Of a stretch of DNA of 64,000 nt, positions 5,234 through 63,740 are shown piece by piece. Origin of the DNA: Mesorhizobium sp. AR02 (GTDB lineage Bacteria; Pseudomonadota; Alphaproteobacteria; Rhizobiales; Rhizobiaceae); assembly GCF_024746835.1 (NCBI RefSeq), contig NZ_CP080530.1:868001-932000 (forward strand), in the 5' to 3' direction. A program made the position numbers and the translations under genes. Every line of letters begins with the position of its first letter. Positions within the stretch are counted from its first letter, which is position 1. The notes under the pieces were generated by a model. It was not told the DNA's origin. It did not search any database and saw only the letters and a program-made list of their open reading frames with translations.

Positions 5234-6208
5234 TCAGCGGATCACAGGCTCGCCATGGAAGCGGCGGCGCGATGGAGGAGAAACGCCGAAGCCGACTTCC
5301 ATCATCAGCCGTGGCCTGCGGGCCGGCACGGTGCCCATATGGAAGCCGAACGGATCCTCGACGAAACCGAGACCGGCCTCCCCGGTCAGCGTGACCGGGC
5401 TCTGCTCCCCGTAGACATCCAGAACCTCTTGCGCGGGATGGCCGACGAGAAGCGTAAGCTGGTGCTTGAGGGCGCGGCGGTTATGACTGCCTCGGACATA
5501 GACATGGGGGCCGGTGCCCTCGTCGACGGGCATCAGGTAGAAGAAGAACTTCAGCATCCGCCAGTCGTCGAGGTCGAAGTGGTATTTGCCAAGCGAAGCC
5601 AGGTTCTTGTCGGCGTCGGAGGCTTGGCCGGTCGGGAAACTCCACCAGACACGCGTGGTGATCAACTTCGCCTGGCCGCCGAGATAGTGCGCGGCGATAT
5701 CCATGAGCAGCGGATCGTTCTGGATGGCGAGTGCCGCCTTGCAGCCCAGAATGCGCTCGAAATAGTGGCCGCTGAGCAACGGACGGCCAAACCGGACCTC
5801 AGCCTCCGCATGCTCCGTCGGCATGAATTCGAGGCGGCGGTCGAAATTGCCGAAGCAAGGTGTGCACCTGGCGAATGCGGCTACATCTTCAGAGACCATT
5901 GTTGGCAAGACGAGACCGGAAAAAAGCCCATCCGACCGCAGAGCGTCGACAACATCCTGGCGATTGACGCCAGCAAACATCGTGTCCTGGGCATTCTGCG
6001 ACACTCGAACAGGCTTTGCACCACGCCAGTGCATTTTCCGTGCCGGCATGGTGCGGGCGAGCATGAACATCGGCAGCCACGCCGGATTCTCTCGAAAATC
6101 CGAGAGATAGGTCGGGATACGCACAGCGATGCGATGGAGCATGCTGCCGTTTCGCGCGATCGCCTCAAGGCTTGCAGCGCCGGCTTTGTCGGGGTGCGTA
6201 TCGGTCAT
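5234..6208 (-). CDS. Phytanoyl-CoA dioxygenase (PhyH)-like non-haem iron oxygenase
   Basis: A 324-residue protein with the layout of Fe(II)/2-oxoglutarate oxygenases of the PhyH type. The probable facial triad is YHFDLDDW (His-x-Asp, near residue 210) and a distal His in FGFHMG (near 295), followed by ARRPRLM, whose Arg would bind 2-oxoglutarate. VDEGTGPHVYVRGSH is the usual strand before the core end. The substrate cannot be read from sequence. It is not ectoine hydroxylase EctD: the EctD signature around the iron site is absent. It follows nodM on the same strand at about 860 bp upstream, too far for an obvious operon. A 15-bp perfect palindrome lies about 112 bp upstream. Confidence 0.7.
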   Translation of the reverse strand: MTDTHPDKAGAASLEAIARNGSMLHRIAVRIPTYLSDFRENPAWLPMFMLARTMPARKMHWRGAKPVRVSQNAQDTMFAGVNRQDVVDALRSDGLFSGLVLPTMVSEDVAAFARCTPCFGNFDRRLEFMPTEHAEAEVRFGRPLLSGHYFERILGCKAALAIQNDPLLMDIAAHYLGGQAKLITTRVWWSFPTGQASDADKNLASLGKYHFDLDDWRMLKFFFYLMPVDEGTGPHVYVRGSHNRRALKHQLTLLVGHPAQEVLDVYGEQSPVTLTGEAGLGFVEDPFGFHMGTVPARRPRLMMEVGFGVSPPSRRRFHGEPVIR

Positions 6209-48040: not shown

Positions 48041-49516
48041 TTGCCCCTGTGCCTGCCGATGATCCGTCACCTGAAATCCCCCGAGCTCTTTGGACCCATT
48101 GATCGCCTGCCGGCACTTGGCACGCGGATTAGCAAGCGAACATTCGAGGTCCTCAACCCGTCGACCGGCGAAGTGCTGGCAGAGCTTCCCGACATGGGTG
48201 TCGAGGAAACATGCGCTGCGATCGACAAGGCGTATGTCGCCCAGCCTGGATGGGCAGGATTGACCGCACGTGAGCGCAGCGACGTTCTGTGGCGTTGGCA
48301 TCAGTTGATCATCGACCACGCCGACGATCTCGCCGCTATACTCACAGCGGAGATGGGCAAGCCGCTTGCCGAAGCCAAATCGGAGGTGTCGCATGCTGCG
48401 GCGTACCTGCAATGGTACGCCGAGGAGGCCAATCGCATATATGGCGAGACGATCTCCGCACCATCGCCGGACCGCCGCATGCTGGTGATCAAGCAACCGA
48501 TCGGCGTCGTGGGAACGATAACACCATGGAATTTCCCAGCCTCGATGGTCGCGCGCAAGATCTCGCCAGCCTTAGCTGCGGGCTGCACCATCGTGCTCAA
48601 GCCCGCTGAGCAGACGCCGCTCGTGGCTGGCGCAATGTTCGCCCTCGCCCACCAGGCCGGCTTTCCCGAAGGCGTCGTCAACCTGATCTATGCGTCCGAA
48701 GGTGATGCGGTTGGCCGTGAACTCTGCGCCAATCCCAAGGTCCGCAAGATCAGCTTCACCGGCTCGACCGAGGTTGGCCGGCTGCTGATGCGCCAGTGCT
48801 CGGACCAGATCAAGAAGGTCAGCCTCGAGCTCGGCGGCAATGCACCTTTCATCGTCTTCGACGACGCCGATATCGACGCTGCGGTCGACGGTGCGATCCA
48901 GGCGAAGTTCCGCAATGCCGGCCAGACTTGCGTGTCGGCGAACCGCCTTTACGTCCAATCGAGCGTTCACGACGAGTTCGTTGAGAAATTCGTGGAGAAA
49001 GTCCGCCGCTTATCGGTTGGTGACGGCTTCGCTGCCGGAGTGGACATCGGGCCGCTGATCGACAAGCATGCTCTGGCCAAGATCGAGTCGCACATCGCCG
49101 ATGCCGTCGCCAAAGGCGGCACAATTCGATGCGGGGGCAATCGCATCGGCAAGGATGGCACGTTTTTCGAACCAACGGTCCTCACCGAGATTTCCAGCGT
49201 GATGGCGGTTGCGCAGGAAGAGACTTTCGGGCCGCTGGCGCCGATCATTCGCTTCGACGATGCGGATCAGGTCGTGCGTGAGGCCAACGACACGATCTAC
49301 GGCCTCGCCGCCTACTTCTATGCCTCAAACCTGAAGCGTGTCTGGCGTGTGGCCGAGGCCCTGGAATATGGCATGGTCGGTATCAACACGGGACGCATGT
49401 CCTCGGAAGCGGCACCCTTCGGCGGGATCAAGCAGTCCGGCATCGGGCGGGAGGGTTCCCGCCATGGCCTCGAAGACTACCTCGAAATGAAATACCTTTG
49501 CATGGGCGGAATCTGA
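48041..49516 (+). CDS. NAD(P)-dependent succinate-semialdehyde dehydrogenase-like aldehyde dehydrogenase
   Basis: 491 residues from a TTG preceded by GAGGAGGAA at the right spacing; an ATG at 48059 is the alternative. Aldehyde dehydrogenase motifs are complete: TITPWNFPASMVARKISPAL (coenzyme), FTGSTEVGRLL, catalytic Glu in LELGGNAPFIVF, catalytic Cys in GQTCVSANR, and the C-terminal PFGGIKQSGIGREGSRHG typical of GabD/SSADH. It oxidises succinate semialdehyde or a related short aldehyde such as aspartate or glutarate semialdehyde. It is a second, intact relative of the frameshifted dehydrogenase at 57528 and could cover for it. No adjacent gabT. Confidence 0.9.
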   Translation: MPLCLPMIRHLKSPELFGPIDRLPALGTRISKRTFEVLNPSTGEVLAELPDMGVEETCAAIDKAYVAQPGWAGLTARERSDVLWRWHQLIIDHADDLAAILTAEMGKPLAEAKSEVSHAAAYLQWYAEEANRIYGETISAPSPDRRMLVIKQPIGVVGTITPWNFPASMVARKISPALAAGCTIVLKPAEQTPLVAGAMFALAHQAGFPEGVVNLIYASEGDAVGRELCANPKVRKISFTGSTEVGRLLMRQCSDQIKKVSLELGGNAPFIVFDDADIDAAVDGAIQAKFRNAGQTCVSANRLYVQSSVHDEFVEKFVEKVRRLSVGDGFAAGVDIGPLIDKHALAKIESHIADAVAKGGTIRCGGNRIGKDGTFFEPTVLTEISSVMAVAQEETFGPLAPIIRFDDADQVVREANDTIYGLAAYFYASNLKRVWRVAEALEYGMVGINTGRMSSEAAPFGGIKQSGIGREGSRHGLEDYLEMKYLCMGGI

Positions 49517-50744: not shown

Positions 50745-51220
50745 CACCGGCCTCCGTCGCTGCGGCTGCGCCCCGTGCTTCCGACAGCAGCGCGCTCACC
50801 AGTGGCAATAGCTTCGTCCGCTCGGCCGGTGCTATCGGTGCCGGCGGGGTCTTGGGCACAAAGAGATCGAGTTGGCGGTGACAGGATTGACGATGCTTCG
50901 TGCTTGTCTCCTCCTTCGCAACGGGAATCGTCGCGAAGCAAGGTTAGACAGGCATCGAGCTCAAGACGAAGTTCGCGCAGATACGTCAGCGACAGACGGG
51001 GACTCTCCGTCACCATCATCACCTCCGCACGATCCTCCGTCATCCAGATCGGCAACTGCACCAGGGTGCCGTCAAGCTGGCGGATGATCAGAACGACCTC
51101 GTCACCATTGCGATTGCGCCCGGCAACAATAACCGCTTCCCCGTAACGGGGATGAAATCGATATCGGATAATCGCCTCACCCGACTGATAGCGGGCATTA
51201 TGAAGTTGTTGCACCCACAC
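50744..51220 (-). CDS. Hypothetical protein next to recombinase (DUF5372-like)
   Basis: The stop codon overlaps the ATG of the recombinase scrap (TGATG), showing the two formed an operon. Core: YRFHPRYGEAVIVAGRNRNG and LIIRQLDGTLVQLPIWMTED, a small beta-rich domain found upstream of recombinases in rhizobial mobile DNA. The first residues (from GTG 51220) overlap the IS110 fragment, so the native start may have been replaced. Role unknown. Confidence 0.55.
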   Translation of the reverse strand: MWVQQLHNARYQSGEAIIRYRFHPRYGEAVIVAGRNRNGDEVVLIIRQLDGTLVQLPIWMTEDRAEVMMVTESPRLSLTYLRELRLELDACLTLLRDDSRCEGGDKHEASSILSPPTRSLCAQDPAGTDSTGRADEAIATGERAAVGSTGRSRSDGGR

Positions 51221-51878
51221 CTGGAACGCTCATCAGCCGCCGACGGACCTCTTCCTGGCGAACGAGACCGAGAACCTGCTTCGTCAGCCGGGCGAACTCT
51301 CCCAGCATTGTAGCGAGGATCGTCAGCAGTGGCTCGACCAGAGGCATGACAACCGGATCTGTGCCGGCCAACTCGCGCACACGACTGGCGAAGGCGGTTC
51401 GCGACGGCGTGCCCAGCTTGATGCCGGCCTCCCGCAGGATCGCCCGGACCACGTTCTCGATGGTGCGCATTTCGTTCAGCACCGTGCGGCGGGCGACGAG
51501 GAGGGATCGCCAGACACGGCACTGCCGGCTCTTGACGTGCACCTGCTGATACCAGCCGGTGCGCATGATCTGCGCCAGCGCGCGGGCGTCATTCCGATCC
51601 GTCTTGTTTGGCATCGTCTTCATCGCCGCATTGGCCTGCCGGGTCTCGATGCAAATGGCCGGCAGGCCATCGGCGCACATCCCGTCGTGAAGCCAGGCCG
51701 TCAGCGAACACGCTTCGAGACCGATGCGCTCCAGCGGCAGATCGACTTTCCGCAACGCTTCGATCAACGCCTGCGGCTCGCTCGCCGCACGCGCCTCCTT
51801 CACGATCCGCCCGGCCTCGTCGACCACGCAAATCGCGGTCTCTTCCAAAGACACGTCAAGTCCGGCAAAATACTTCAT
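51198..51878 (-). pseudogene. IS110-family transposase, C-terminally truncated
   Basis: 226 residues with the DEDD catalytic domain: YFAGLDVSLEETAICVVDE (Asp), GLEACSLTAWLHDGM (Glu), MPNKTDRNDARALAQIMRTG (two Asp). The frame stops at RLMSVPGVGATTS, exactly where the transposase_20 domain begins, so the catalytic Ser domain is lost. Confidence 0.88.
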
Positions 51879-51996: not shown

Positions 51997-52341
51997 TCAG
52001 GCTCTTTCGCTAACGAAGCCTGAATCGTCGGCGTTGTGGATGTAGAAGTGGCCGACGAGGCGGCCTGCAGTGCCAAAGGCAACCCAGCCGCGGCCACAGG
52101 CTGGGTCGTTCTCATCCTGCCCCTCCCACGAGAATTCCGCGCAGGCTGAGCCATCGCGGGTGCCATATCGGACATCGAGGAAGCCCTTGAGTGCGCCGAA
52201 GGCGATCTCGCCATCCGCCGAGCCTTTGAATGTCAGATGCGCCTCCTCGACGAGATCGAGGAAGTCGTTATCCCAAACATCTATCTCGACGATGCGCCAG
52301 CGGCCGGCAAAGGCCTTGGCGAAGCTGGGAACCTTGGCCAT
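51997..52341 (-). CDS. Passenger/hypothetical protein coupled to the IS5 transposase
   Basis: 114 residues starting MAKVPSFAKAFAGRWRIVEI. Its ATG overlaps the transposase stop (TGATG) and has GGAGA seven bases upstream, so it is translationally coupled. The product is acidic, with conserved-looking blocks DFLDLVEEAHLTFKG, FGALKGFLDVRYGTRDG and FSWEGQDENDPACGRGW. No catalytic motif; function unknown. Intact although its transposase is dead. Confidence 0.7.
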   Translation of the reverse strand: MAKVPSFAKAFAGRWRIVEIDVWDNDFLDLVEEAHLTFKGSADGEIAFGALKGFLDVRYGTRDGSACAEFSWEGQDENDPACGRGWVAFGTAGRLVGHFYIHNADDSGFVSERA

Positions 52342-52920
52342 CAGCCGGTCTCCGCCATGAGCTTTGGCAGTCGCACCAGATTGTAGGCTGCGGCTGCGAA
52401 GGTGAAGGCCCATCCGACACGATCGGGGCCGCGGAATCTGGTCTTGTGCTGGCCGGCCACGACCTTGATCCAACCGAATGCCTCTTCGATGCGCTTCCTG
52501 ATGCGCTGGCTGACGGCATAGCCGCCATGCCGCGTCGTAGGCCTTGTCGGCGCCGAGCGTGATCGCCTGTGGCCGCTCCGCTCGAGGTTCAATCATGTGC
52601 AGTGCGGCCACCCGCTCAGCATGTCCGTCTGCCAGTGTCAGGCAGGCGTCGACCAGCAGGCCGTGGCGGTTCGAGTAGAACGCCTGTAGCAGCATCGCTC
52701 GCAGCAGCTTTTCCGGCGGGATCGAAGGCCGCCCCATCGGCGAATACAGCGCCGCCAAGTCCCGCTCTAACGCCGCCAGCGCCTCGTTCACAATCGCCCG
52801 AATGCGGCGCAACGGATGATCGCGCCGCACCCGAGCCTCGAGATCAACATAACTGAACAGTTCGCCAGACCGTTCGTCTCCGCCGCGCATGCCTCGTTCT
52901 CCGAATCTCTCCGGAGACAC
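52341..52920 (-). pseudogene. IS5-family transposase with internal deletion
   Basis: The N-terminal frame reads YVDLEARVRRDHPLRRIRAI and GRPSIPPEKLLRAMLLQAFY, then ITLGADKAYDAAW. The C-terminal part (GGYAVSQRIRKRIEEAFGWI then KVVAGQHKTRFRGPD, ending PKLMAETG) is in another frame. About 200 residues expected between them are missing, including parts of the DDE core. Confidence 0.85.
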
Positions 52921-52940: not shown

Positions 52941-54416
52941 TTAGCGCTCCACGCTGGAAGAAGGCTGCGCTGCAAGAGGCAGCCATGAATGTTCGATCAG
53001 AGCGCGGTGAAGCGCCCTAACAGCGTCGTCAAAGCGGGATTCATCAACTATGAAGATTATATCTACGCCGCGCATGAGCTGGTGGATGCCTAGGACCTCT
53101 ATGCAAGCATCCGCTAGCGCTTGTACAGCAATGGCTGCTAGGTTCTGGAGATTTAGGTCGCTTCCGATGGCCGAGACAATGCTCACCTTCTTTGTAACAA
53201 TATCAGCCGTCGGAAAGCTTTCCTCTAGAGCCTGGACAACGGGCGGGATTACGTCGGGTCCCGCGGCTAGATAATGCGTGATGGTATTTGCGTTTGATGC
53301 CTTAGTGACGACGCGGACGTTATAGCCTTTCAACTTCTTGAGTATGTCCGCATCATAGTCGTTCCCACCCACCATATCCTGCTCGAAAAACTCTAGGGCA
53401 TACACCCCTCTAAGGCCAGTGATAATCTCTGCCTGCGGTGTGTCAGAGACGTAGTCGCGCGTAATGACGGTTCCTTCGTCCCCAGGTTCGAAGGTATTCT
53501 TGAAACGAAGAGGTATATTCGCATGGCGCAGCTCCTTGGCTGCAGCCGGATGTATCGCCTCCACTTCGAGGTTAGCGAGCTGATCGGCGACATCATAGTT
53601 GGTGTGGCCGATGGTGCGGACCCGTGCAATGCCGACAATCTTGGGGTCGGCTGTCGAAAGATGGTACTCCTTGTGGATTATTGCCTCCTTGGCGCCTGTG
53701 CGTACGGCGATCCGGGCGAATGTAAACTCGGTGTAGCCACGGCCATAGAGCTGCACCAGGCCAGCTGGGCATAGGCTGTAGCCCGTGATGATCGGCAGCT
53801 GCTTGCCGAGGTCGATCGCGGATAGCGCCGTCTCGATTCGCTCGTCAAGGCTTATTTCAGTTTCGTCACGCCAGCCCGTCATGTCCACGAAGATCGCCTC
53901 CACGCCAAGTTTCCTGAGGAGCAGTGCCGTGTTGTGGGAACTGTGGGCTTCGCCCTGCGCGGCGAGAACCTCGCGCACGGTATTCAAGTGCTCTTCGAGC
54001 CTGAAGGGGCCATTTGAGCAAAGCCGCTGCAGATCCAACAGGCAGCCGCGCACTCCTTCGATGCGGTCGCGAACAAAATCATCGGCGACGCGCCTTTCCG
54101 GCGAGCAGCCGAAGATCTCCGCATTGATCCTCCTCATCTCCCGATGGGCCTCTGCGAGAGCTTCAACCCAAGCCGATCTTGATCTGTCGCCCGCAAAGCG
54201 CGCATAGGCGCCGGGCGTGCCGGTTTTCTTGTGCTCGAGGAGCAGATCGGTCATTCCACTATAAGCGGATACGACGAATATACGGTTGTAGAGTGCGCTA
54301 CCCTTGCGTTCTCCGATTAGGACGTTCTTGAGTACGGCAGTGGTGTTGGAGATCGACGTGCCTCCGATCTTCTCGACAGTGTGGGCGCTAGGCTCGCGGT
54401 TAGGCAGGAGATTCAC
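52941..54416 (-). CDS. ask: Ectoine-pathway aspartate kinase (Ask_Ect type)
   Basis: 491 residues from GTG 54416, with AAGGA seven bases upstream. It phosphorylates aspartate, the first step towards aspartate semialdehyde. The N-terminus HTVEKIGGTSISNTTAVLKN with RIFVVSAYSGMTDLLLEHKK is specific to the specialised aspartokinases encoded with ectABC, which differ from LysC. Central motifs: GYSLCPAGLVQLYGRGYTEF, IIHKEYHLSTADPKIVG. Two ACT domains close the protein (TKKVSIVSAIGSDLNLQNLA; RGVDIIFIVDESRFDDAVRA). It lies 332 bp downstream of ectC on the same strand and looks intact, unlike ectC. Confidence 0.9.
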   Translation of the reverse strand: MNLLPNREPSAHTVEKIGGTSISNTTAVLKNVLIGERKGSALYNRIFVVSAYSGMTDLLLEHKKTGTPGAYARFAGDRSRSAWVEALAEAHREMRRINAEIFGCSPERRVADDFVRDRIEGVRGCLLDLQRLCSNGPFRLEEHLNTVREVLAAQGEAHSSHNTALLLRKLGVEAIFVDMTGWRDETEISLDERIETALSAIDLGKQLPIITGYSLCPAGLVQLYGRGYTEFTFARIAVRTGAKEAIIHKEYHLSTADPKIVGIARVRTIGHTNYDVADQLANLEVEAIHPAAAKELRHANIPLRFKNTFEPGDEGTVITRDYVSDTPQAEIITGLRGVYALEFFEQDMVGGNDYDADILKKLKGYNVRVVTKASNANTITHYLAAGPDVIPPVVQALEESFPTADIVTKKVSIVSAIGSDLNLQNLAAIAVQALADACIEVLGIHQLMRGVDIIFIVDESRFDDAVRALHRALIEHSWLPLAAQPSSSVER

Positions 54417-54450
54417 CTCAAAATCCTTTTCGGCGAGGTAGGTTGGTCAG

Positions 54451-54513
54451 TTGACAACCCGCGGCACCAGCGCGCCGTCCATACGTCTTGCATGCGCGCT
54501 GACGTCCATACGT
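54451..54513 (-). CDS. Possible 20-codon leader or micro-ORF upstream of ask
   Basis: A short frame (MDVSAHARRMDGALVPRVVN, then stop) has a very good ribosome site, AGAAGGAGAAGAACGT, before its ATG and ends about 35 bp before the ask start. It may be a leader peptide, a coupled micro-protein, or the scar of a deleted gene. Confidence 0.35.
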
Positions 54514-54748
54514 TCTTCTCCTTCTGACGTAGCTCGCAGCGCTGCCATGCCGTGTGAAGGTTCTCCGAAACGCCAGCCATGGGAGGTAGATCGAATCCAC
54601 GCGTCGTCGTACTTTCCTGGTCTGCGGATGTGCTAGCGCAGGGGAAGCCACGGCCTCAGGCATGACGAGCGACCGCGGTGAGGCGAAGGAGCCAAATACG
54701 CTCGATGTCGACGCTCATTAACCTTCTCTGTGGCGACATCAGATCGCC

Positions 54749-55124
54749 TCAGGCAGAGTCGAGAGGATATGCGCCGGTCTCACCATGCACCTCGCTGCCC
54801 GCCAAGGGAGGTACAAAGACGTAGGCCAACACCAATTCGATCTCGGCCCAGCAGGTAGGCGTCATGCTTATCGAACGCGTAAATGATGTTCGGTCGCACG
54901 ACATGGACCTCATCCGCCTGCGGATCCTCGATAGAACCCGTTCCTGAGATGCAGTAGATCGCCCCAAGGTGGTTCCGAAAGTGCATCTTGAGCCGGGGCG
55001 TCCGGATAGATCCTAGTGATATGCCCATCCCATCGTTCTTGAGGAGCATCCGCCCGCTTTCCCAACTCGTCGTCTGGACCCGCCGGGCTGTCAGTTTCTC
55101 CTCATTAAAATCCCTGACGATCAT
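54749..55124 (-). pseudogene. ectC: L-ectoine synthase (EctC), frameshifted and missing a metal ligand
   Basis: The gene starts at ATG 55124 behind AGAGGTGAATC, 10 bases after ectB stops. EctC cyclises N-gamma-acetyldiaminobutyrate to ectoine. It begins MIVRDFNEEKLTARRVQTTS and holds the cupin strands HFRNHLGAIYCISGTG and RPNIIYAFDKHDAYLL. After LL the frame is lost by about two bases; the family C-terminus (AEIELVLAYVFVPPLAGSEV then HGETGAYPLDSA) is in another frame and stops at 54749. The conserved metal-ligand Glu of HLEAVYC is Gly here (HLGAIYC), while the Tyr and His of IYAFDKHD remain. Both defects argue for loss of activity. Confidence 0.85.
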
Positions 55125-55134
55125 GATTCACCTC

Positions 55135-56442
55135 TTACGCTGCCGTGTTCACGGTGCTGCCAATCACGCTTTCGATAGCGTCCTCGAGGATGTCGAGGCC
55201 TTGGCTAAGCTGATCCTCGCCAATGACAAGAGGTGGCAGACACTTCACGACCTCGTCTTTGGGACCAGCGGTCTCGACAATGAGGCCCTTTTGGAAGGCG
55301 GTGCTGATGACTTGACCGGCAACCTCGCCAGACTTCAGATCGATGCCCCGCATCATGCCACGACCCTTGACTGACGCGCGGCTTGGGTCGTATTTCTGCG
55401 CGATCTGCTCAAGGCGGCTTTTCAGCAGATTGCCTTTCTCCGCGACGGACGCAGCAAAGCTGTCTGTCCGCCAGAAGTGCTCAAGGGCTGCCCGGGCGGT
55501 CACAAAAGCATGGCAATTGCCGCGGAACGTGCCGTTGTGTTCTCCCGGCTCCCACTTGTCGAGTTGTCGATCAATTAGGACGAGGGCCATAGGCAGGCCA
55601 TAGCCCGATATCGATTTCGCCAGAGTGACGATGTCCGGGCGGAGACCGGCCGCCTCAAAGCTGAAGAACGCATCGGTCCGGCCAACACCGGCCTGAATGT
55701 CGTCTACGATCAGCAGAGCTCCGTGTTTGCGCGCAATGGCCGCCACCCTGCGCAGCCACTCCGTGCCGGCGACATTCAGGCCGCCTTCGCCCTGAACTGT
55801 CTCGACAATCACCGCCGCCGGGGCGTCCACGCCGCTGGAGGGATCCGAGAGCAGGCGATCAAGGTAATCGGCGGTGTCTACAGCGGATCCAAGATAGCCG
55901 TCATAGGGCAGTCGCGTGACGCCGCCGAGCAGCTGCCCGGCGGCTGCGCGGTGATATCGGTTGCCGGTGCAGGAGAGAGCGCCAAGGCTCGCGCCGTGAA
56001 AGCCATTAGTGAAGGCTATGATGTTGGGCCGACCAGTGATCTTGCGCGCCAGCTTGAGGGCAGCCTCGACCGCGTTGGCGCCGGTTGGACCGGGAAACTG
56101 TACGACGTAGTCTAGTTGTCGCGGTCTAAGAATCGTCTCATCGAATTCCCGCAGAAAAGACTCCTTGGCTTCGTTATACAGATCGAGGCCATGGGTGATG
56201 CCGTCACGCGCAATATAGTCTACGAGTGCGGACTTCAGCTCGGGGGGATTGTGCCCATAGTTTAAACTTGAGCAGCCCATGAGGAAATCGAGATAGGCTG
56301 TCCCATCTCGCGCAAACAGCTGGGCCCCTTGTGCCCTCGCGAAAACGACGGGAAAGCTGCGGGCGTAGCTGCGCACTTCGGACTCAAGATGGTTGAAGAC
56401 CGCAAATTCCTCCTCGCGATCCGGTTTACTTTGGTCAGTCAT
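55135..56442 (-). CDS. ectB: L-2,4-diaminobutyrate:2-oxoglutarate transaminase (EctB)
   Basis: A class III, PLP-dependent aminotransferase that makes diaminobutyrate from aspartate semialdehyde and glutamate. Start at 56442 (MTDQSKPDREEEFAVFNHLE) behind GGGAGGCAACG gives 435 residues. Typical EctB motifs: VQFPGPTGANAVEAALKLAR, FTNGFHGASLGALSCTGN, VIVETVQGEGGLNVAG, LLIVDDIQAGVGRTDAFFSF, PLP lysine in LAKSISGYGLPMALVLID, and HNGTFRGNCHAFVTA. It is intact and first gene of an ectB-ectC-ask operon. A NifA/sigma54-type promoter begins about 175 bp upstream. In normal clusters ectA precedes it; here it is 6 kb away. Confidence 0.92.
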   Translation of the reverse strand: MTDQSKPDREEEFAVFNHLESEVRSYARSFPVVFARAQGAQLFARDGTAYLDFLMGCSSLNYGHNPPELKSALVDYIARDGITHGLDLYNEAKESFLREFDETILRPRQLDYVVQFPGPTGANAVEAALKLARKITGRPNIIAFTNGFHGASLGALSCTGNRYHRAAAGQLLGGVTRLPYDGYLGSAVDTADYLDRLLSDPSSGVDAPAAVIVETVQGEGGLNVAGTEWLRRVAAIARKHGALLIVDDIQAGVGRTDAFFSFEAAGLRPDIVTLAKSISGYGLPMALVLIDRQLDKWEPGEHNGTFRGNCHAFVTARAALEHFWRTDSFAASVAEKGNLLKSRLEQIAQKYDPSRASVKGRGMMRGIDLKSGEVAGQVISTAFQKGLIVETAGPKDEVVKCLPPLVIGEDQLSQGLDILEDAIESVIGSTVNTAA

Positions 56443-56615
56443 CGTTGCCTCCCTATTTGGGTATTGGCTTGGCAGGTCGGCGGGTATGCCTGCAAATGGG
56501 GTCGTGGTCGAACCAGGGAGCTTGCCGAATTGGCGCACCCAAGTCCTGAGCCACAGCTGCGAAGAACAACTTGGACGAACACCGGTGCCGCCCGGCGTCG
56601 CGTTTCACGAAGAGG

Positions 56616-56632
56616 CTCAAAAGTCATGCCAA
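56616..56632 (-). promoter_or_regulatory. -24/-12-like sigma54 promoter of ectB operon
   Basis: On the minus strand TTGGCATGACTTTTGAG matches the -24 element (TGGCA) exactly; the -12 element reads TTGA where TTGC is the consensus. The same sequence occurs before ectA. GG to the -12 position spacing is 10 bases. Confidence 0.68.
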
Positions 56633-56720
56633 TTGCGCCGAAGGAGCCTTAGAAATATTTTACTGAGTTTTGTTCAATGATTTGACCCGGAGTGCAGGAG
56701 GCAACCAGGGCGAAACAATG

Positions 56721-56736
56721 TGTCGCGGATCCAACA
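56721..56736 (-). promoter_or_regulatory. NifA upstream activator site (TGT-N10-ACA) of ectB operon
   Basis: TGTCGCGGATCCAACA is a TGT-N10-ACA site about 90 bp above the -24 element, the usual distance for NifA with an AT-rich IHF-like stretch between. Confidence 0.7.
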
Positions 56737-56899
56737 AACACGACAGTAGGTGTCGGTTGCCCGGCGTTTTCTCAGGAATTGGCGAAGGGGTTTAACAACG
56801 CGCGACTGGGAGCGGATCACATTGCGATCGGCGCTGACGACGGAGCATGCTACAGGCCGGAAATTGAACTGATATAAGTGCGTCAAATGGATACTTAGC

Positions 56900-57391
56900 A
56901 TGGCGTTCCTAAGACTCGATCCGATCGATCTCAAAATCCTCGACGCCATCCAGCGCGACGGGCGCATCACCAAGCTGGCGCTGGCCGACAAGGTCGGCCT
57001 GTCGCCGACCCCGTGCTGGATGCGGCTGCGCAAGCTGGAAAAGGCCGGCATCGTTTCGGGCTATCACGCCAGCGTCGCCATGCGTTTGATCGCGCCGGTC
57101 GCCACCGTGCTGATGGAGGTGACGCTGGCGAACCACCGCCAGGCCGATTTCGACCGCTTTGAACGCGTCATCCGCGCCGTCCCCGAGATCGTCGCCTGCT
57201 GGTCGGTGGGTGGCGGCGTCGACTATGTTCTGAAGGTAATGGCGCGCGACATCGACGCCTATCAGCGGCTGGTCGACGCCTTGCTCGAGCGTGAGATCGG
57301 CATCGACCGTTACTTCACCTACATCGTCACCAAGACGGTGAAGGAAGAGACCGTCTTGCCGGTGGCTAACCTGCTGCCGGCGCGATCGTAA
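56900..57391 (+). CDS. AsnC/Lrp-family regulator, DoeX/AsnC type
   Basis: 163 residues: N-terminal helix-turn-helix (LDPIDLKILDAIQRDGRITK; LALADKVGLSPTPCWMRLRK) and C-terminal RAM/AsnC ligand domain (VPEIVACWSVGGGVDYVLKV). The AsnC regulator followed by an SSADH-type gene is the conserved asnC-ssd pair of ectoine/diaminobutyrate catabolism clusters (DoeX in Halomonas). The next gene here is exactly such a dehydrogenase, so regulation by a diaminobutyrate-type ligand is a reasonable inference. It is divergent from ectB, whose promoter block lies immediately upstream. Intact. Confidence 0.85.
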   Translation: MAFLRLDPIDLKILDAIQRDGRITKLALADKVGLSPTPCWMRLRKLEKAGIVSGYHASVAMRLIAPVATVLMEVTLANHRQADFDRFERVIRAVPEIVACWSVGGGVDYVLKVMARDIDAYQRLVDALLEREIGIDRYFTYIVTKTVKEETVLPVANLLPARS

Positions 57392-57527
57392 CGGGGCACG
57401 CAGAGATATCCTCTTCCCGGGGTGCACAATAGAGAGACTCTCTCTAGGGGCAGGCATCCAAACAGCCTCTCTGTCTGCCCATGGCGAATAGTCTTCCCGT
57501 ATCAGTCCGACCCGGGAGGCCTCGACC

Positions 57528-59022
57528 ATGTCCGCGCACTTTGCCCGCACGATCCGCCATGACGCGCTCGATCGCGTCGCCGACCGCCGGCTGCTGCGCG
57601 AACTCGCCTATGTCGACGGCCACTGGACGGCGAGCGAGGCCGCCGAAAGCTTCGAAGTCACCGATCCGGCCAGCGGCGCCACCATTGCCTTCGTTGCCGC
57701 GCTTGATGCGCAGCAAACGACAGAAGCGATCGATGCCGCTTCGCGCGCCTTTCCCGCCTGGCGGGCTCTGCTACCGCAGGAGCGCGCAAGGATCCTGCGA
57801 AAATGGTTCGAGCTTATCATCGCCGCCAAGGACGACCTGGCGCTGCTAATGACGCTCGAACAGGGCAAGCCACTCAAGGAGTCACTGGGCGAGATCGACT
57901 ATGCCGCCTCCTTCGTCGAATGGTATGCGGAAGAAGCCAAGCGGCTCAACGCCGAGAGTGTCACAAGCCATCTGCTCGGGGCCGAGATGATGGTGCGGCG
58001 CGAGCCGATCGGTGTCGTCGGCGTCGTCACGCCTTGGAACTTTCCGTCAGCGATGTTGACACGCAAGGCGGCGGCAGCACTCGCCGCAGGCTGCACCATC
58101 GTCGCGCATCCGTCCTCGGAAACGCCACTGTCGGCACTGGCGCTGGCCGAACTTGGCGAACGTGCCGGTCTGCCGGCTGGTGTCTTCAACGTCATCACCG
58201 GCAAGGCTTCGACGATCGTTGGGCGCAATGTGCGAGGACGCCCGCGTTCGCGCCATGAGCTTCACCGGCTCGACCGAGGTCGGCCGGTTGATCGCGGCGC
58301 AAAGTGCGCCGACGATGAAGCGGCTGGTGATGGAACTCGGCGGCCACGCTCCGCTGATCGTCTTCGACGATGCCGATATCGACAGAGCTGTGAGCATCGC
58401 TATCGACGCCAAATTCGCCACGTCAGGCCAGGACTGCCTTGCCGCCAACCGCATCTACGTGCAGCGGCCGATCTATGACCGGTTCTGCGCCGCCTTCGCC
58501 CGCCGCGTCGAGACGCTGCGGATCGGCAATGGGCTCGCCGACGAAACCGACATCGGACCGCTGATGCACGAGCGGGCCGTCAAAAAGGTCGAGGAGCAGG
58601 TTGCCGACGCGCTCGCCCGCGGCGCGCGCTGCCTTGTCGGCGGCAAGCTTCACGCGGCGGGATCGCTGTTTTACCAGTCGACGCTGCTTGTGGACGTGCC
58701 CGACGAGGCGCAGATCATGCGCGAGGAGACCTTCGGTCCCGTCGCCGCCGTGACGCCGTTTGACGACGAGGCAGAGGTTGTCGCTCGCGCCAATGCCACC
58801 GAATATGGCTTGGTCGCCTATGTCGTGACCGAGAACGGCGCGCGCCAGCAGCGCATGGGCCGCGCCCTCGACTACGGCATGGTCGCCATCAACCGCGTAA
58901 AGATCACCGGCGCGCCGATCCCGTTCGGTGGCGTCAAGCAGTCAGGCATCGGCCGCGAGGGGTCGCGCCACGGATTAGAGGCCTTCACCGATCTCAAATA
59001 TCTCTGCCTTAATGTAGCCTAG
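57528..59022 (+). pseudogene. SSADH-type aldehyde dehydrogenase (ssd/DoeC-like), one frameshift
   Basis: Starts at ATG 57528 behind GGGAGG. The first frame contains VTPWNFPSAMLTRKAAAALA and runs until GKASTIVG; at the GGG of 58221-58223 an extra G shifts the frame, and the rest (AMCEDARVRAMSFTGSTEVG, LELGGHAPLIVFDDADIDRA, GQDCLAANRIYVQ with the catalytic Cys, PFGGVKQSGIGREGSRHGLE) continues to 59022. Removing one G restores a ~497-residue enzyme. In ectoine catabolism the equivalent enzyme oxidises aspartate semialdehyde to aspartate. As read it is broken, but the position in a G-run makes a sequencing error possible. Confidence 0.87.
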
Positions 59023-59339
59023 GTGTTCGGTCCGGCATGTGATGGATTGGGTTTAGCCTGAAACCTTTGCGGCTGCTCAGTCCAGATTTTGCAGATGTGC
59101 TCGAAGGGGGTTAGGCCACTGAATGTGCAGAAGTCTGTCTACCTCATGGCGAGAAAAGCCAAGCCCCCGACCAAGCGAGGTAAGCGGCGCTCGAGGGTCT
59201 CTTGCGCCAATGATGTTTGAATCGGGACTGTCATTGTTGAGGGTAGCCGCGTCCACAACGCCATAGCCCCCATGGACGAATAGGCCTAGCCAAAAAAACA
59301 TTGAAACACACGATTTGCAAGCCATTGAGGGGTACTCTG
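59023..59339. other. Spacer downstream of the dehydrogenase
   Basis: About 320 bp; a minus-strand frame (59077-59583) covers it but has no recognisable product. Confidence 0.4.
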
Positions 59340-59950
59340 TACGCCCTGTGAATCTACTTCCCGGTTCCGTCCGCATCCGCCGGGTCGTGACGACGCGGCT
59401 CGATCGTCTGATAAATGCGGCGGGGCGGGACACCGAGCCCGGCAACCTTTCCTGCCTCACCTGCCGGTGTCCCGTACTCGTAAGGCTGGAATGGCGAGCC
59501 ACCGGTAAGGTATACGGGCGCCCGTGGATCGCCGCTTCCCTCCGCTTCATCACTTTGTGATATGTTTCGGGCGTCGGCGTCATCTACCGTTTGATGGATG
59601 ATCCGTTGCAACTTTCGGCCTAACACTCCGACTGAACACATATCCCACAGGGCATAGGCTCCTTTGTCGCGGCCTCGAAGGTGACGAGCATTCACAACCA
59701 GTTGGCGCCCGAGCTCGGCGGCGCGGATGCGAATGCTGCGCCAGGCCTCCAACATCGGTAGGACGATAGGAGCAAGCTCGTTCTGGTCGGGAAGAAGGCT
59801 CCGGACATTCTTTTCGAATGTAGTTCCCTTACCTGCGGGAACAAGCAAGCCGAACGTTTTCATGATCCCTCGGCTCTGGTTGGAATGCTCGACGGTGGTC
59901 CGGACCAGCCGGGTGCGTGCTGCCACGAGCGTGCGGGTCATCATGCGTTT
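59340..59950 (-). pseudogene. IS110-family transposase, internal remnant
   Basis: The frame reads SRGIMKTFGLLVPAGKGTTF and APIVLPMLEAWRSIRIRAAE, the linker region of IS110 transposases between the catalytic domains, then loses similarity; YEYGTPAGEAGKVAG near the end recalls the 'Y-x-S-G-E' stretch in another frame. Both ends of the gene are missing. Confidence 0.55.
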
Positions 59951-60075
59951 GGCTCACACCTCTCGGTGGGAGGGGCTTTGCCGTCATTCAACAATGTCGT
60001 CGGCTTTCTCGCCGGTGGCGATGCGCATGACGCGGACGGCGTTGACGATTACGTCGGCAGGGGCGCTTCTGGCTT

Positions 60076-60264
60076 TCAGGTCCGGTTGGCATTTGTGCTG
60101 CCTTTGTTTGGCGGACATGCCGGCAAATCATCGATTTCAGGCTGATAGCCCTTTGCCTCGTATTCGCTGGCAGGGATCTCCAACTCCTTGCCGTCGCCAT
60201 AACGAATCCAAACGCTATCCTGCGTAGCCCATCCGTCTTTGATCTTGCAAACTCCAGCTACCAT
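60076..60264 (-). CDS. Small hypothetical protein with strong expression signals
   Basis: 62 residues, MVAGVCKIKDGWATQDSVWI followed by RYGDGKELEIPASEYEAKGY. AGGAG precedes the ATG by eight bases and a sigma70-like promoter lies just above. The even codon use and signals make a real gene likely. The compact beta-strand pattern and the Cys residues at 6 and 50 are all that can be said; no family recognised. Confidence 0.6.
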   Translation of the reverse strand: MVAGVCKIKDGWATQDSVWIRYGDGKELEIPASEYEAKGYQPEIDDLPACPPNKGSTNANRT

Positions 60265-60288
60265 GCGAAAGCTCCTGGCTTTCCGCTA

Positions 60289-60317
60289 AGCATAGCCGCT
60301 CTCGCATACGGCTTCAA
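60289..60317 (-). promoter_or_regulatory. Sigma70-like promoter of the 62-residue gene
   Basis: On the minus strand TTGAAG and TATGCT are separated by 17 bases, about 25 bp above the ATG at 60264. Confidence 0.45.
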
Positions 60318-61303
60318 ACGCGACTGATGAGTTTATAGATTCAAACTAAGACAACTAGCTCTTAATCGCTGCGCAGTATCTTTGCTTCAGGCGCGGCTGC
60401 AACGAAAGCTCTTCGAGTAACTGGCGGGTGAGCCTTGCCACGCAACACCTGAAGACAGGCGTCCATCGCTACCTCCCGTTTCACGGTCTGACGATCAAGA
60501 TCAACAGCAGGATAGCGGCCGCGTCATTGACATCGAACACGATACGCTCTGAGCTGTGCCGGCCACCCGAAAAACGACCGGCCTCTCAAATCTGCTCAAG
60601 CCGGTCATCTCTGCGCCACCAAGCCGATCATAGGCCAGTTCGCTGCGGGGCCGAGCCGGTTGCGCTGCGAACTGTAAAATGTCGACACAATGCCCTCTGG
60701 ATGCCCAGCGCCGGCCTGTCGATACGGGCGATATGGCACCAAGGACAGTCCCATTCCTTCCAGTCGTTGCAAGCGCTGACCCTCATAGTCGAGATCGAAA
60801 CAGCTGATCGAGCGATGATGGTAGCCAGTTCCTGGGATGCACCACCCGCTACGGCGATTATTTCGGCGAGCCCGGCGGGGAGATGCGCCGCTACCCCCCA
60901 GAGCTCTTCGCGCCGCCCAACGGTAATTTTCTGCTTTTGATGCAGCCTAGCTCAGACCGCCGAGAGGCTGGCGAAGTTTCCTCGCCCTCATCGCGGTGGT
61001 CAACTGCCGCATATTCTTCATCACTATGTCGGCGCGCCAAGCCAGACGCCACGGCCGACATCGTTCTCACCTTCGCCGAAATCACTGCGTTCGACCGGAT
61101 CGACGCGCCCCGAACGCGACCGCGCCTGCAACGGTCCACTCTTGCCGCTTACCTGCTGCAAATTGCCATGCTTATCGGCACCTCGCCCTCAGCGGGTTCT
61201 AAAGCCGCGGGCTAGCTAAGCTAGAACGTCTCGAATGACATCGCGAAGGTATCATAACCGACAGCCTCGGATGACGTCGAAAACCAACAACTGCTATCGG
61301 GTT
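60318..61303. other. Long stretch with at most a GNAT relic
   Basis: About 1 kb. Around 60850-60945 the plus strand reads YFGEPGGEMRRYPPELFAPP and NGNFLLL, reminiscent of the first strands of a GNAT acetyltransferase, but the acetyl-CoA motif is not found. Nothing else was recognised. Confidence 0.35.
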
Positions 61304-61319
61304 TGTCAAGTTCGCGACA
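61304..61319 (+). promoter_or_regulatory. NifA upstream activator site of the 98-residue gene
   Basis: TGTCAAGTTCGCGACA is a TGT-N10-ACA site, with a core related to those of ectA and ectB (TTCGCGACAC versus TCCGCGACAC). Confidence 0.68.
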
Positions 61320-61408
61320 CGACCCGCCTTAGAACGGATGTCCTGCTGTACGCAATTTAACCATTGAAAGCTTTGCGGATAATTTGTGCTGACGCTCTAT
61401 GGGGGCAG

Positions 61409-61425
61409 TTGGCACGATTGTTGAA
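61409..61425 (+). promoter_or_regulatory. -24/-12-like sigma54 promoter of the 98-residue gene
   Basis: TTGGCACGATTGTTGAA has a consensus -24 (TGGCACG) and a -12 TTGA in place of TTGC. It lies 90 bp after the NifA site. Confidence 0.68.
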
Positions 61426-61586
61426 GCTCCAAGTCAAGACCTAGACTAAGACTAGCCATGGGAAATCGCACGTGAGGGCCAGAAGTTCGTGCCACGGGAC
61501 ATGAAGGCATAACGGTGCGCTCGCGGCGCTAGAGGTATTTGAAATGGGCATCGGACAGCGGAAGCCCCATTGGACGAGAAGTTGAC

Positions 61587-61883
61587 ATGAAGACGATGCA
61601 GGAAAAGGACATCCCGGCGTTCGTGCAATCAGTTGTCGATATTGGCTGCGGCATACACGCGATTGGCCACTGGGGATACGTCTTTGGTGATGGCGAGTTA
61701 ACGCCGGCGCAACAGAGGGCCATCGTGCCACAACTGCGCTGGATTGCCGAAACCTACGGCGAACGCGATCATCTCATGGATGAGATAATCGCACATCTGC
61801 GGTCGATCGGACGCTATGTCGAGATTGAGCCGCAGACAGGTGTCCCTGATGGCGGAAACCGGATCCGCCTAAGTCGCCATTGA
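61587..61883 (+). CDS. Unknown 98-residue protein behind a NifA/sigma54-type promoter
   Basis: Starts at ATG 61587 behind GAGAAG. The product, MKTMQEKDIPAFVQSVVDIG followed by CGIHAIGHWGYVFGDGELTP, is compact and mixed helix/strand, with one Cys-Gly-Ile-His and a Gly-His-Trp-Gly that could bind a metal or haem. The second half (QQRAIVPQLRWIAETYGERD) is helical. No family recognised. It is the only open gene after the 61304/61409 promoter, about 160 bp from the -12 element, so it is a candidate member of the NifA regulon. Confidence 0.65.
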   Translation: MKTMQEKDIPAFVQSVVDIGCGIHAIGHWGYVFGDGELTPAQQRAIVPQLRWIAETYGERDHLMDEIIAHLRSIGRYVEIEPQTGVPDGGNRIRLSRH

Positions 61884-62139
61884 AAATGGCGGACTCGGAA
61901 CTTGGCATTTTTTCCCGTTTTTCCTATCAAGTTGATCGTAGCGGAACCAAGCGAAAGGCGCAGATCAAGTAAGAGCATGGGTGCCCATTTCACTGGATCA
62001 CACGCAGAAGCCTGGTCACTCGATTCTTGATGCGAGGCTTCGTAAGCGGGACATTGAGCGCTTCATGGGCAGCGCGAAAGATTGTTCCGCAGCCCTTTCA
62101 TTTTGAGAAGCGCACGGAGGGATCGGATCGCCAAAGGCT
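61884..62139. other. Intergenic stretch, no gene recognised
   Basis: About 260 bp between the 98-residue gene and the second promoter block; nothing supported. Confidence 0.4.
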
Positions 62140-62263
62140 TGTTGTCGGAGCGGGGGCCTGCTCCGTCGTCAGCGCCGATCGCAAGATGATCCGCTACCAG
62201 TCCCGTTGTTAAACCCCGTCGCCATTCCTGAGAAAACGCCGGGACGACATCTACTGTCGTGTT

Positions 62264-62279
62264 TGTCGAATCCGCGACA
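62264..62279 (+). promoter_or_regulatory. NifA upstream activator site of ectA
   Basis: TGTCGAATCCGCGACA is a TGT-N10-ACA site 104 bp above the -24 GG. Confidence 0.72.
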
Positions 62280-62365
62280 CATTGTTTTCGGCCGTGCCTG
62301 CTGCACTCCGGGTCAAGTCATTGAACAAAACTCAGCAAAATATTTCTAAAGCTCCCTCGGCGCAG

Positions 62366-62382
62366 TTGGCATGACTTTTGAG
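62366..62382 (+). promoter_or_regulatory. -24/-12-like sigma54 promoter of ectA
   Basis: TTGGCATGACTTTTGAG, identical to the element before ectB. It predicts a transcript start near 62393, about 45 bp before the ectA start. Confidence 0.7.
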
Positions 62383-62439
62383 AACTCCTCTTCGTGAAAC
62401 GCGACTCGAAGCGACACTGGTGTTCGCCCGGAGGTTTCG

Positions 62440-62989
62440 ATGGTCAGTGATAGCCAGTGCTTCTCGTTGCCACGCAACGTCCCGTTGCCGCGAGTGACAT
62501 TCCGAAGACCGACCGAGATTGATGCAGCTGTTGTATGGGACCTCATTGCGAGGTGCCCGCCACTGGACCGCAACTCGCTGTACTGCGAGCTCCTGCTCTG
62601 CACTGATTTCGCCGACACCTGCGTGCTCGCTGAGCCTGCCGGGGCGGTGGTTGGGTGGATGTCGGCTTATCGGCGGCCGAGCGAGCCCTCGACGCTCTTC
62701 ATTTTGGCAGATTGCCGTGCATCCTGAGAAACGCAACACAGGGGTGGGCAAGGGCCTGATCATCTCAGCCCTGAACAGGCCATCTTGCGAGAGCGTGACG
62801 CAAATCAAAGCCACGGTGACGCTCAGCAACCGGGCGTCCAAGTTGCTCTTCCCAGATGTGGCTCGGGACCTACGCGCGCCAATGCGGCAAGCTCTCCGGT
62901 TCGATCGCCAAGCCCATTTTAAGGGACAGCATGAGAGCGAGCACACGTTCGACATTGCGATACGAGAAGCTCGCGACAATTCGCCCTGA
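62440..62989 (+). pseudogene. ectA: L-2,4-diaminobutyrate N-gamma-acetyltransferase (EctA), one frameshift
   Basis: Starts at ATG 62440 with GGAGGTTTCG upstream. The first frame reads TFRRPTEIDAAVVWDLIARC, then PPLDRNSLYCELLLCTDFAD and TCVLAEPAGAVVGWMSAYRR, specific for EctA (GNAT superfamily). At a TTTT run (62702-62705) one extra T shifts the frame. The continuation FWQIAVHPEKRNTGVGKGLI (acetyl-CoA binding loop R/Q-x-x-G-x-G/A) to FKGQHESEHTFDIAIREARD completes the protein in the second frame at 62989. With TTT the enzyme would be whole (~183 residues). It may be a true mutation or a homopolymer error. Confidence 0.88.
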
Positions 62990-63029: not shown

Positions 63030-63740
63030 ATGCATGACCACGCGACCACCCTTGAGGTATCGACATATATCTGCTCGCTTGACCAAAAGGCCCGTAAAGC
63101 GGGCGTTCAATTCAGGATGGGGGAAGATTTTGAGGAGTACCTTTCAATTACCAGTAAGATTTCCGGGAAATATCCTACCTTTCCGAACTTCCGCCCGGAT
63201 TGTTCACAGCTTGAGCCCGGCCAGGCGTTTTGGGTCGTTGGAGAAGATAAATTCGGTAAAGTAGCGCATGTCCAGGCGCTTCGTGTGGATGATCTGGCGC
63301 CTACCACCTTGGCTGACCATCTTGAGTCATTGAAAGCCTGCTATGTGGATCCTGCAAGGCATGCCGGCCCGGGTTCGTCGTGTGTTTGTGTCGCGCCGAC
63401 TGCTCGGATTATAAGCGGGATCGTTGCGTATCACGGCGATTTATGGCTCCGAAGTGACCTTAGAGGACGGGGCTTAGCACCCACGCTTGCAGGTGTCGCT
63501 TTTGGGCTGGCATGGGCGAAATGGTCCCCCGATTTCATCTATGCTCTTGTGCCTACTTGGCTCATCCAAAAGGGAGTCGCCGATCAATACGGCTATCTTC
63601 ACAAAGAAGCACATGGATCCGTCCTGAGTTTACCTGATCGAGACATCGAAGATGATGACTGGCTCATTTGGCTAACTCAACGCGAGTTATCCCAGCTAAT
63701 CAAATGTTCGGCGAATGAAACGATCGAGCGGCTTTCTTGA
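63030..63740 (+). CDS. Hypothetical protein, GNAT-like fold possible
   Basis: 236 residues from ATG 63030, 40 bp after ectA on the same strand, so probably in the ectA transcription unit. The second half (YHGDLWLRSDLRGRGLAPTL followed by AGVAFGLAWAKWSPDFIYAL) looks like the acetyl-CoA binding segment of a GNAT enzyme (R-G-x-G-L-A), and ends KGVADQYGYLHKEAHGSVL. The first half has no recognisable motif. Intact. Substrate unknown; an acyltransferase acting on a product of the neighbouring pathway is only a guess. The ribosome site is weak. Confidence 0.65.
   Translation: MHDHATTLEVSTYICSLDQKARKAGVQFRMGEDFEEYLSITSKISGKYPTFPNFRPDCSQLEPGQAFWVVGEDKFGKVAHVQALRVDDLAPTTLADHLESLKACYVDPARHAGPGSSCVCVAPTARIISGIVAYHGDLWLRSDLRGRGLAPTLAGVAFGLAWAKWSPDFIYALVPTWLIQKGVADQYGYLHKEAHGSVLSLPDRDIEDDDWLIWLTQRELSQLIKCSANETIERLS

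Follow-up and report, generated by a model that had tools for sequence, protein, structure and literature searches.

A 64,000 bp stretch of Mesorhizobium sp. AR02 (C1:868001-932000, hereafter the window; genome 8.9 Mb in 4 contigs) contains what is probably a NifA/sigma-54-controlled module for L-2,4-diaminobutyrate (DABA), carried on a symbiotic megaplasmid and descended from an operon of fused ectAB and ectC. Reading leftward, the transaminase gene ectB is intact, ectC is broken and the aspartate kinase gene ask is intact; a broken ectA copy reads rightward, 6 kb off (Table 1). A sequence-only reading of the window had identified these genes, and ectB and ask do score over their ectoine-type family cut-offs, but it had not noticed that ectC and ectA are broken. 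Because of these two lesions the window has no functional set of ectA, ectB and ectC, and we do not file the locus as an ectoine operon; by elimination, with ectB and ask intact, its product is probably DABA, or something built from DABA, rather than ectoine. Contig C1 (988,422 bp) holds nifH (C1:113286-114173) and two nifA genes above the family cut-off, and is therefore taken to be the symbiotic megaplasmid.

Both ectB and the ectA copy stand behind a block consisting of an upstream activator sequence, an IHF-like site and a -24/-12 element. The TGT-N10-ACA and TGGCATG...TTGA sites that the sequence-only reading had placed before the two genes were recovered exactly, coordinates and spacings included: 89 bp between TGTTGGATCCGCGACA and TGGCATGACTTTTGAG for ectB, and 87 bp between TGTCGAATCCGCGACA and TGGCATGACTTTTGAG for the ectA copy. 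Both blocks are built and spaced like the nifH promoter of the same genome (TGTCGTGTCCGCTACA, 88 bp, TGGCACGCATCTTGAG). Calling TCAAATCATTG and TCAAGTCATTG IHF-like presumes the general IHF consensus. The activator motif alone was rejected as evidence, occurring at chance level (7 in the window vs 6.6 expected). The composite was sought on both strands of the 8.9 Mb as TGTC/TGTT-N9-ACA, 60-90 bp, TGGCAYG-N4-TTGM, that is, for these two activator-site variants and this one spacing range, with the reversed pattern as control. It gave 15 + 2 = 17 matches (14 on C1, 3 on C2), compared with 0 for the control in both searches, and thus lies far above chance. The search also recovered the nifH promoter with A at -12, a base thereby common to nifH and the ect blocks; it is stated for nifH of M. 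loti and R. etli as well (PMC3538637).

Three of the 17 matches fall inside the window, before ectB, ectA and ORF 61587. The last of these (61304-61425, +; TGTCAAGTTCGCGACA, 90 bp, TGGCACGATTGTTGAA) precedes a 98-aa ORF (61587-61883, +) with 16 homologs, the named ones all from Mesorhizobium and including Mll6261 of M. japonicum. The C2 matches (3805192, 3882275, 3894114) cluster within 90 kb of that chromosome-sized contig, perhaps marking a second nif or symbiosis region.

The 'split' ectoine gene set of the earlier reading arose by duplication and decay of an operon (fused ectAB - ectC, with ask here), and the inverted repeats lead us to reject a simple split. Four inverted pairs join the promoter arms (I1, 88 nt, 93%; I3, 50 nt, 90%; I4, 43 nt, 93%; I5, 43 nt, 84%), and a fifth (I2, 70 nt, 84%) reveals a leftover of ectA between the left block and ectB. 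Being arms of one inverted duplication (84-93% complementary), the two blocks are not independent observations. The reading frame of ectB is open up to a GTG at 56538, its start being the internal ATG at 56442 behind GGGAGG. In nucleotide alignment ectC has a 10-nt deletion common to the window, strain YC-39 and a metagenome-assembled genome (MAG), followed by a later -2 shift, and the ectA copy is frameshifted by an extra T in a T run near 62702. Two more partial copies lie elsewhere on C1: at C1:499-1224 an open ectA continues into 43 residues from the start of the EctB part and from there into the end of ectC, with no NifA block upstream in the footprint alignment, and at C1:56489-56609 a NifA block is followed by scraps of ectA and ectB. 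The kinase is of the type associated with ectoine synthesis.

Table 1. Features of the ect locus, its duplicated promoter region and the adjoining gene, in window positions
Feature	Position	Strand	Basis or remark
ask, ectoine-associated aspartate kinase, intact	52941-54416	-	NF006614 660.7 bits, cut-off 536
ectC pseudogene	54780-55124	-	85.2 bits vs cut-off 128; matches positions 1-95 of 130
ectB, diaminobutyrate-2-oxoglutarate transaminase, intact	55135-56442	-	TIGR02407 624.7 bits, cut-off 552.2
Remnant of ectA 3' part, between promoter and ectB	56508-56577	-	84% inverted match to 62835-62904
Left arm of duplicated promoter region	56573-56850	-	repeat pairs I1, I3, I4, I5
-24/-12 element of ectB, TGGCATGACTTTTGAG	56616-56631	-	A at -12, as in nifH promoter of same genome
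IHF-like site, between ectB activator site and promoter, TCAAATCATTG	56675-56685	-	alignment
NifA upstream activator sequence of ectB, TGT-N10-ACA, TGTTGGATCCGCGACA	56721-56736	-	pattern scan, footprint alignment
Right arm of duplicated promoter region	62156-62429	+	repeat pairs I1, I3, I4, I5
NifA upstream activator sequence of ectA copy, TGTCGAATCCGCGACA	62264-62279	+	pattern scan
IHF-like site of ectA copy, TCAAGTCATTG	62313-62323	+	alignment
-24/-12 element of ectA copy, TGGCATGACTTTTGAG	62367-62382	+	pattern scan
ectA copy, frameshifted, no ectB behind, altered 3' end	62440-62989	+	two frames, 74.1 + 61.2 bits, cut-off 120.6
GNAT-fold protein, 236 aa, nearly rhizobia-only family	63030-63740	+	40 bp behind ectA copy

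In a scan of one genome per species, EctB at 87-95% identity turned up at 11 loci, strain AR07 alone contributing three, and the next relatives were ~65% identical; a second search of 146 Mesorhizobium genomes (E 1e-190) found this EctB in 11, all with nifH, compared with 100/146 overall (P 0.013). In M. waimense, M. kowhaii, AR07 plasmid c, UFLA 01-765, S. fredii GR64, and G466 and G467 (identical in this region), ectA and ectB form a single frame of 631-638 codons. Linkers of 19-25 residues, measured in 11 of the 13 fused sequences, come in five lengths, all in frame, which suggests that the fusion is actively maintained; also retained is an internal ATG preceded by GGAGG or GGAAG. In GR64 ectAB-ectC lies ~2.2 kb upstream of nifHDK on the symbiotic plasmid. 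The ancestor is a NifA promoter followed by fused ectA-ectB and ectC (here also ask), an operon related to alphaproteobacterial ectoine clusters; in a 90-sequence tree the window EctB clade nests among alphaproteobacterial ectoine EctBs. The fusion is not confined to rhizobia, an idea we rejected because proteins 48-61% identical and bearing both Pfam domains occur, among other taxa, in Woeseiaceae, Pseudomonadales, Stutzerimonas kirkiae and Motilimonas (P0032, P0034, P0038, P0044, P0053 and others). With the ectABC(-ask_ect) operon reviewed in PMC5924519, which the naming of ask as ectoine-type partly follows, the locus shares EctB, the kinase, recognisable EctA and EctC, and the order A-B-C-ask; it differs in the EctA-EctB fusion of intact relatives, in its dead ectA and ectC, and in predicted NifA-type rather than osmotic control. 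Recurrent neighbours of ectAB-ectC are MocR regulators (GntR-aminotransferase) and an LLM flavin oxidoreductase (loci L133, L167, L168, L169).

The composite was found before related ectB genes of other Mesorhizobium and Sinorhizobium/Ensifer strains, and in none of 64 other ectB loci, strict or loose (64 of 69 with >=900 bp upstream, i.e. at least that length). Fifteen upstream regions were aligned, three of which (G466, G467 and the C1:499 copy) have no block and were left out of averages. TGT-N10-ACA is exact in 11 of the remaining 12 (GR64 ends in ACG), the -24 GG and TTG occur in all 12, and -12 is GA rather than GC in 11 of them, as in nifH here. Mean majority identity is 0.95 for the activator site, 0.96 for the IHF-like site and 0.97 for -24/-12, compared with 0.87-0.90 for spacers and leader and 0.75-0.80 for the 120 bp above the block. 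A plain scan of the 11 related loci found the pair in 8 and the activator site alone in another (L011). By the sequence-only reading's own check, homologous loci devoid of these elements would speak against it; twelve aligned blocks carry them, and G466, G467, the C1:499 copy, L017 and L018 do not. Taken together, the cross-strain sites, the composite search, the nif-bearing plasmid and published nifA-mutant data on related genes leave the predicted NifA control of the ect blocks well supported.

The blocks might instead be inherited copies without present function, with ectB on its way out, as four partial copies on one plasmid and two or more broken genes could suggest; we think this improbable. 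ectB is under purifying selection: pairwise dN/dS (NG86) is 0.08-0.21 over all pairs (intact ectA 0.19-0.49, intact ectC 0.08-0.25) and 0.08-0.15 among loci without usable ectA, such as the window, M. sangaii, YC-39 and AR07d. Internal stops are absent from 13 of 14 aligned rows, the sole stop (M. ventifaucium) falling just before the internal ATG, ahead of the start codon, and the promoter elements are better conserved than their spacers. One further AR07 ectB copy is interrupted. The same ectA deletion junction occurs in the window, M. sangaii and YC-39, with ectB dN/dS of 0.08-0.09 at dS 0.32-0.36; a clade of just these three is rejected by the ectB tree (p 0.0009) but one that also includes AR07d is not (p 0.29), so recombination is likely, ectA loss is not datable, and dating it by dS was abandoned as unsafe. 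Upstream of ectB (at 6001) on AR07 plasmid d (L017), an msi260-type start (MDIDIFEAYA), an ectA fragment and ectB run in one long frame, a recombinant of the two transaminase loci.

Somewhat less probable still is that bacteroids make ectoine or acetyl-DABA under NifA, as osmolyte or symbiotic metabolite, compounds that the sequence-only reading had offered among its products. It may hold for AR07 plasmid c, UFLA 01-765 and M. waimense, where intact fused EctAB and intact EctC stand behind a NifA block, and likewise for S. fredii GR64, whose activator site has a last-base change. In AR02, with the EctA and EctC steps lost, ectoine is probably not made from this locus: ectC has become a pseudogene, and every ectA copy is either broken or without a NifA block. 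YC-39 and the MAG have a broken ectC as well, and M. kowhaii an incomplete one. Of the products named earlier, diaminobutyrate, the first, is the best candidate. Least probable is that EctB works in the breakdown direction, on DABA, homoserine-related or other plant amines as a nitrogen or carbon source: the reaction is reversible and the R. leguminosarum DABA transaminase is tied to the homoserine-rich pea nodule (PMC10228743), but the authors of that paper conclude that DABA is made by their enzyme in pea bacteroids, and synthesis is also indicated by the ask linked here and by the asd and aspartokinase-like genes linked in S. medicae and R. sullae. One of the ectAB-ectC loci noted above (L167) also has a peptidase-like ORF that may resemble ectoine hydrolase.

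For a NifA-controlled DABA module we infer NifA binding, expression in bacteroids and DABA as the product. NifA at TGT-N10-ACA, aided by IHF, would activate sigma-54 polymerase at TGGCATGACTTTTGAG in nitrogen-fixing cells, and transcription would then cover ectB and, past the dead ectC, ask. Ask, with a housekeeping aspartate-semialdehyde dehydrogenase, would supply aspartate semialdehyde, which EctB would turn into DABA.

Published work on related genes bears on this reading. In Paraburkholderia phymatum the NifA-dependent transaminase gene ectB (Bphy_7266) falls in nifA-mutant nodules (log2 -7.58), as does a nearby GNAT gene, Bphy_7268, and 2,4-diaminobutanoate is reduced (PMC8305402); we find an activator site 97 bp before GGGTACGGCTTTTGCC, ~0.5 kb upstream of ectB. 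That EctB is of another lineage, however, and its GNAT is a different, Pfam-recognised one. On the M. loti R7A symbiosis island the diaminobutyrate transaminase msi260 is silent in a nifA2 mutant (msi260::lacZ, 5.1 units against 1339 for wild type; PMC3538637). At 46% identity and on another tree branch, msi260 was rejected as the ortholog of the window ectB, and no composite is directed at the msi260-type gene in the matching M. japonicum stretch. Dat of R. leguminosarum UPM791, encoded on a symbiotic plasmid, is likewise a DABA transaminase and is reported to make DABA in bacteroids; its authors found no NifA site (PMC10228743). In B. diazoefficiens the ectC-annotated blr2106 falls in nifA-mutant nodules (log2 -6.5; PMC4926349) and its number-neighbour blr2108 is listed as a peptide synthetase (PMC8632152); an order-wide EctC search gave no obvious match for blr2106. 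Available sections of open-licence PMC papers describe neither a NifA promoter on Mesorhizobium ect genes nor a GNAT replacing EctA. For two species NifA-dependent diaminobutyrate transaminases are already published; what looks new is direct control, decay and replacement.

Confidence in the DABA module must be tempered by several observations. The authors of PMC3538637, whose tables place msi260::lacZ among genes with NifA/RpoN promoters yet whose text says none precedes it, judge direct activation by NifA highly unlikely and the effect indirect; the msi260 insertion mutant fixes nitrogen normally, and msi260 belongs to an EctB lineage other than that of the window. A at -12 deviates from the usual sigma-54 consensus, AR07 loci L017 and L018 have no proper activator/promoter pair in the plain scan, and three related ectAB copies are without the block, one of them the open ectA-like copy at C1:499-1224. 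The ectA frameshift is a single extra T in a short run and may be a base-call error. Finally, ask was found in just 2 of 15 loci searched, the window and YC-39 (dN 0.046, dS 0.11), several contigs ending soon after ectB.

The ORF behind the ectA copy has a GNAT fold and may act on DABA in place of EctA, a candidate role to which its distribution and linkage point. Among 12 genomes with this EctB, the GNAT occurs in 0 of 6 with fused intact EctAB and in all 6 others; the raw 1 in 924 overstates this exclusion, since only 2 independent pairs lie on supported branches (5 on all branches), both in the expected direction. Mesorhizobium sp. 43Arga, by source label only, seems to hold both (P0006, P0160), which argues against strict exclusion. 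Sequence relationship of the GNAT to EctA was not demonstrated (probability 0.5%); EctA is not among the best 50 matches listed for the GNAT model, which excludes nothing.

Of 22 rhizobial plasmid records with this GNAT, 15 were examined. ectB lies within ~8 kb in 9 (same strand in 7); Sinorhizobium sp. CCBAU 05631 has it as two annotated genes at a distance of 6.5-7 kb, and in R. jaguaris it shows by tblastn only. An ATP-grasp ligase adjoins the GNAT in 9 of the 15, and neither was seen near it in 3. The two ligases scanned both have LAL_C2, an L-amino-acid ligase domain; one of the two is that of AR02 (C1:1769-3001), divergent from the third ectA copy. R. sullae has the GNAT itself truncated. 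A search of 7 ectB-GNAT loci and of the P. phymatum and M. japonicum stretches found no EctA, EctC or window-type ask. A loose composite occurs in 4 of the 7, heading tlpA - ectB - GNAT - ligase in R. leguminosarum Norway and two R. bangladeshense (one with an intervening insertion sequence) and asd - aspartokinase in R. sullae; none was seen at those of S. medicae pMl2, S. meliloti M270 and R. binae. Single loose matches mean little, as control loci gave 6 in 818,650 bases. 'Uridylate kinase' genes of these loci score as aspartate kinases, under curated cut-offs. Rhizobium-type EctB is 57% identical to that of the window and joins msi260 and P. phymatum in the 90-sequence tree, outside the window clade; two separate branches suggest two recruitments.

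Around the locus, an IS110-type transposase (51198-51878, -) and a weak transposase-domain match (51997-52920, -) just past ask indicate flanking mobile-element debris. An Lrp-like regulator (56900-57391, +) is divergent from ectB, and a succinate-semialdehyde dehydrogenase gene (57528-59022, +) seems frameshifted, a second, intact dehydrogenase lying at 48041-49516 (+).

Little is known of what nodule bacteria produce besides ammonia, and the nifA-mutant studies that list diaminobutyrate transaminases, covering two species, offer no direct mechanism. As a tentative proposal, more doubtful than the module itself, rhizobia may at least twice, starting from two distinct EctB lineages, have put DABA synthesis under NifA for a symbiosis-specific DABA-derived compound, via EctB, a DABA-acylating GNAT replacing EctA and an L-amino-acid ligase coupling the DABA product to another amino acid, with the window locus standing between the EctAB-fusion and GNAT pathways. 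The conserved NifA-type promoter on ectB, the outlasting of ectA and ectC by ectB, and the linked GNAT and ligase point to a candidate undescribed symbiotic metabolite.

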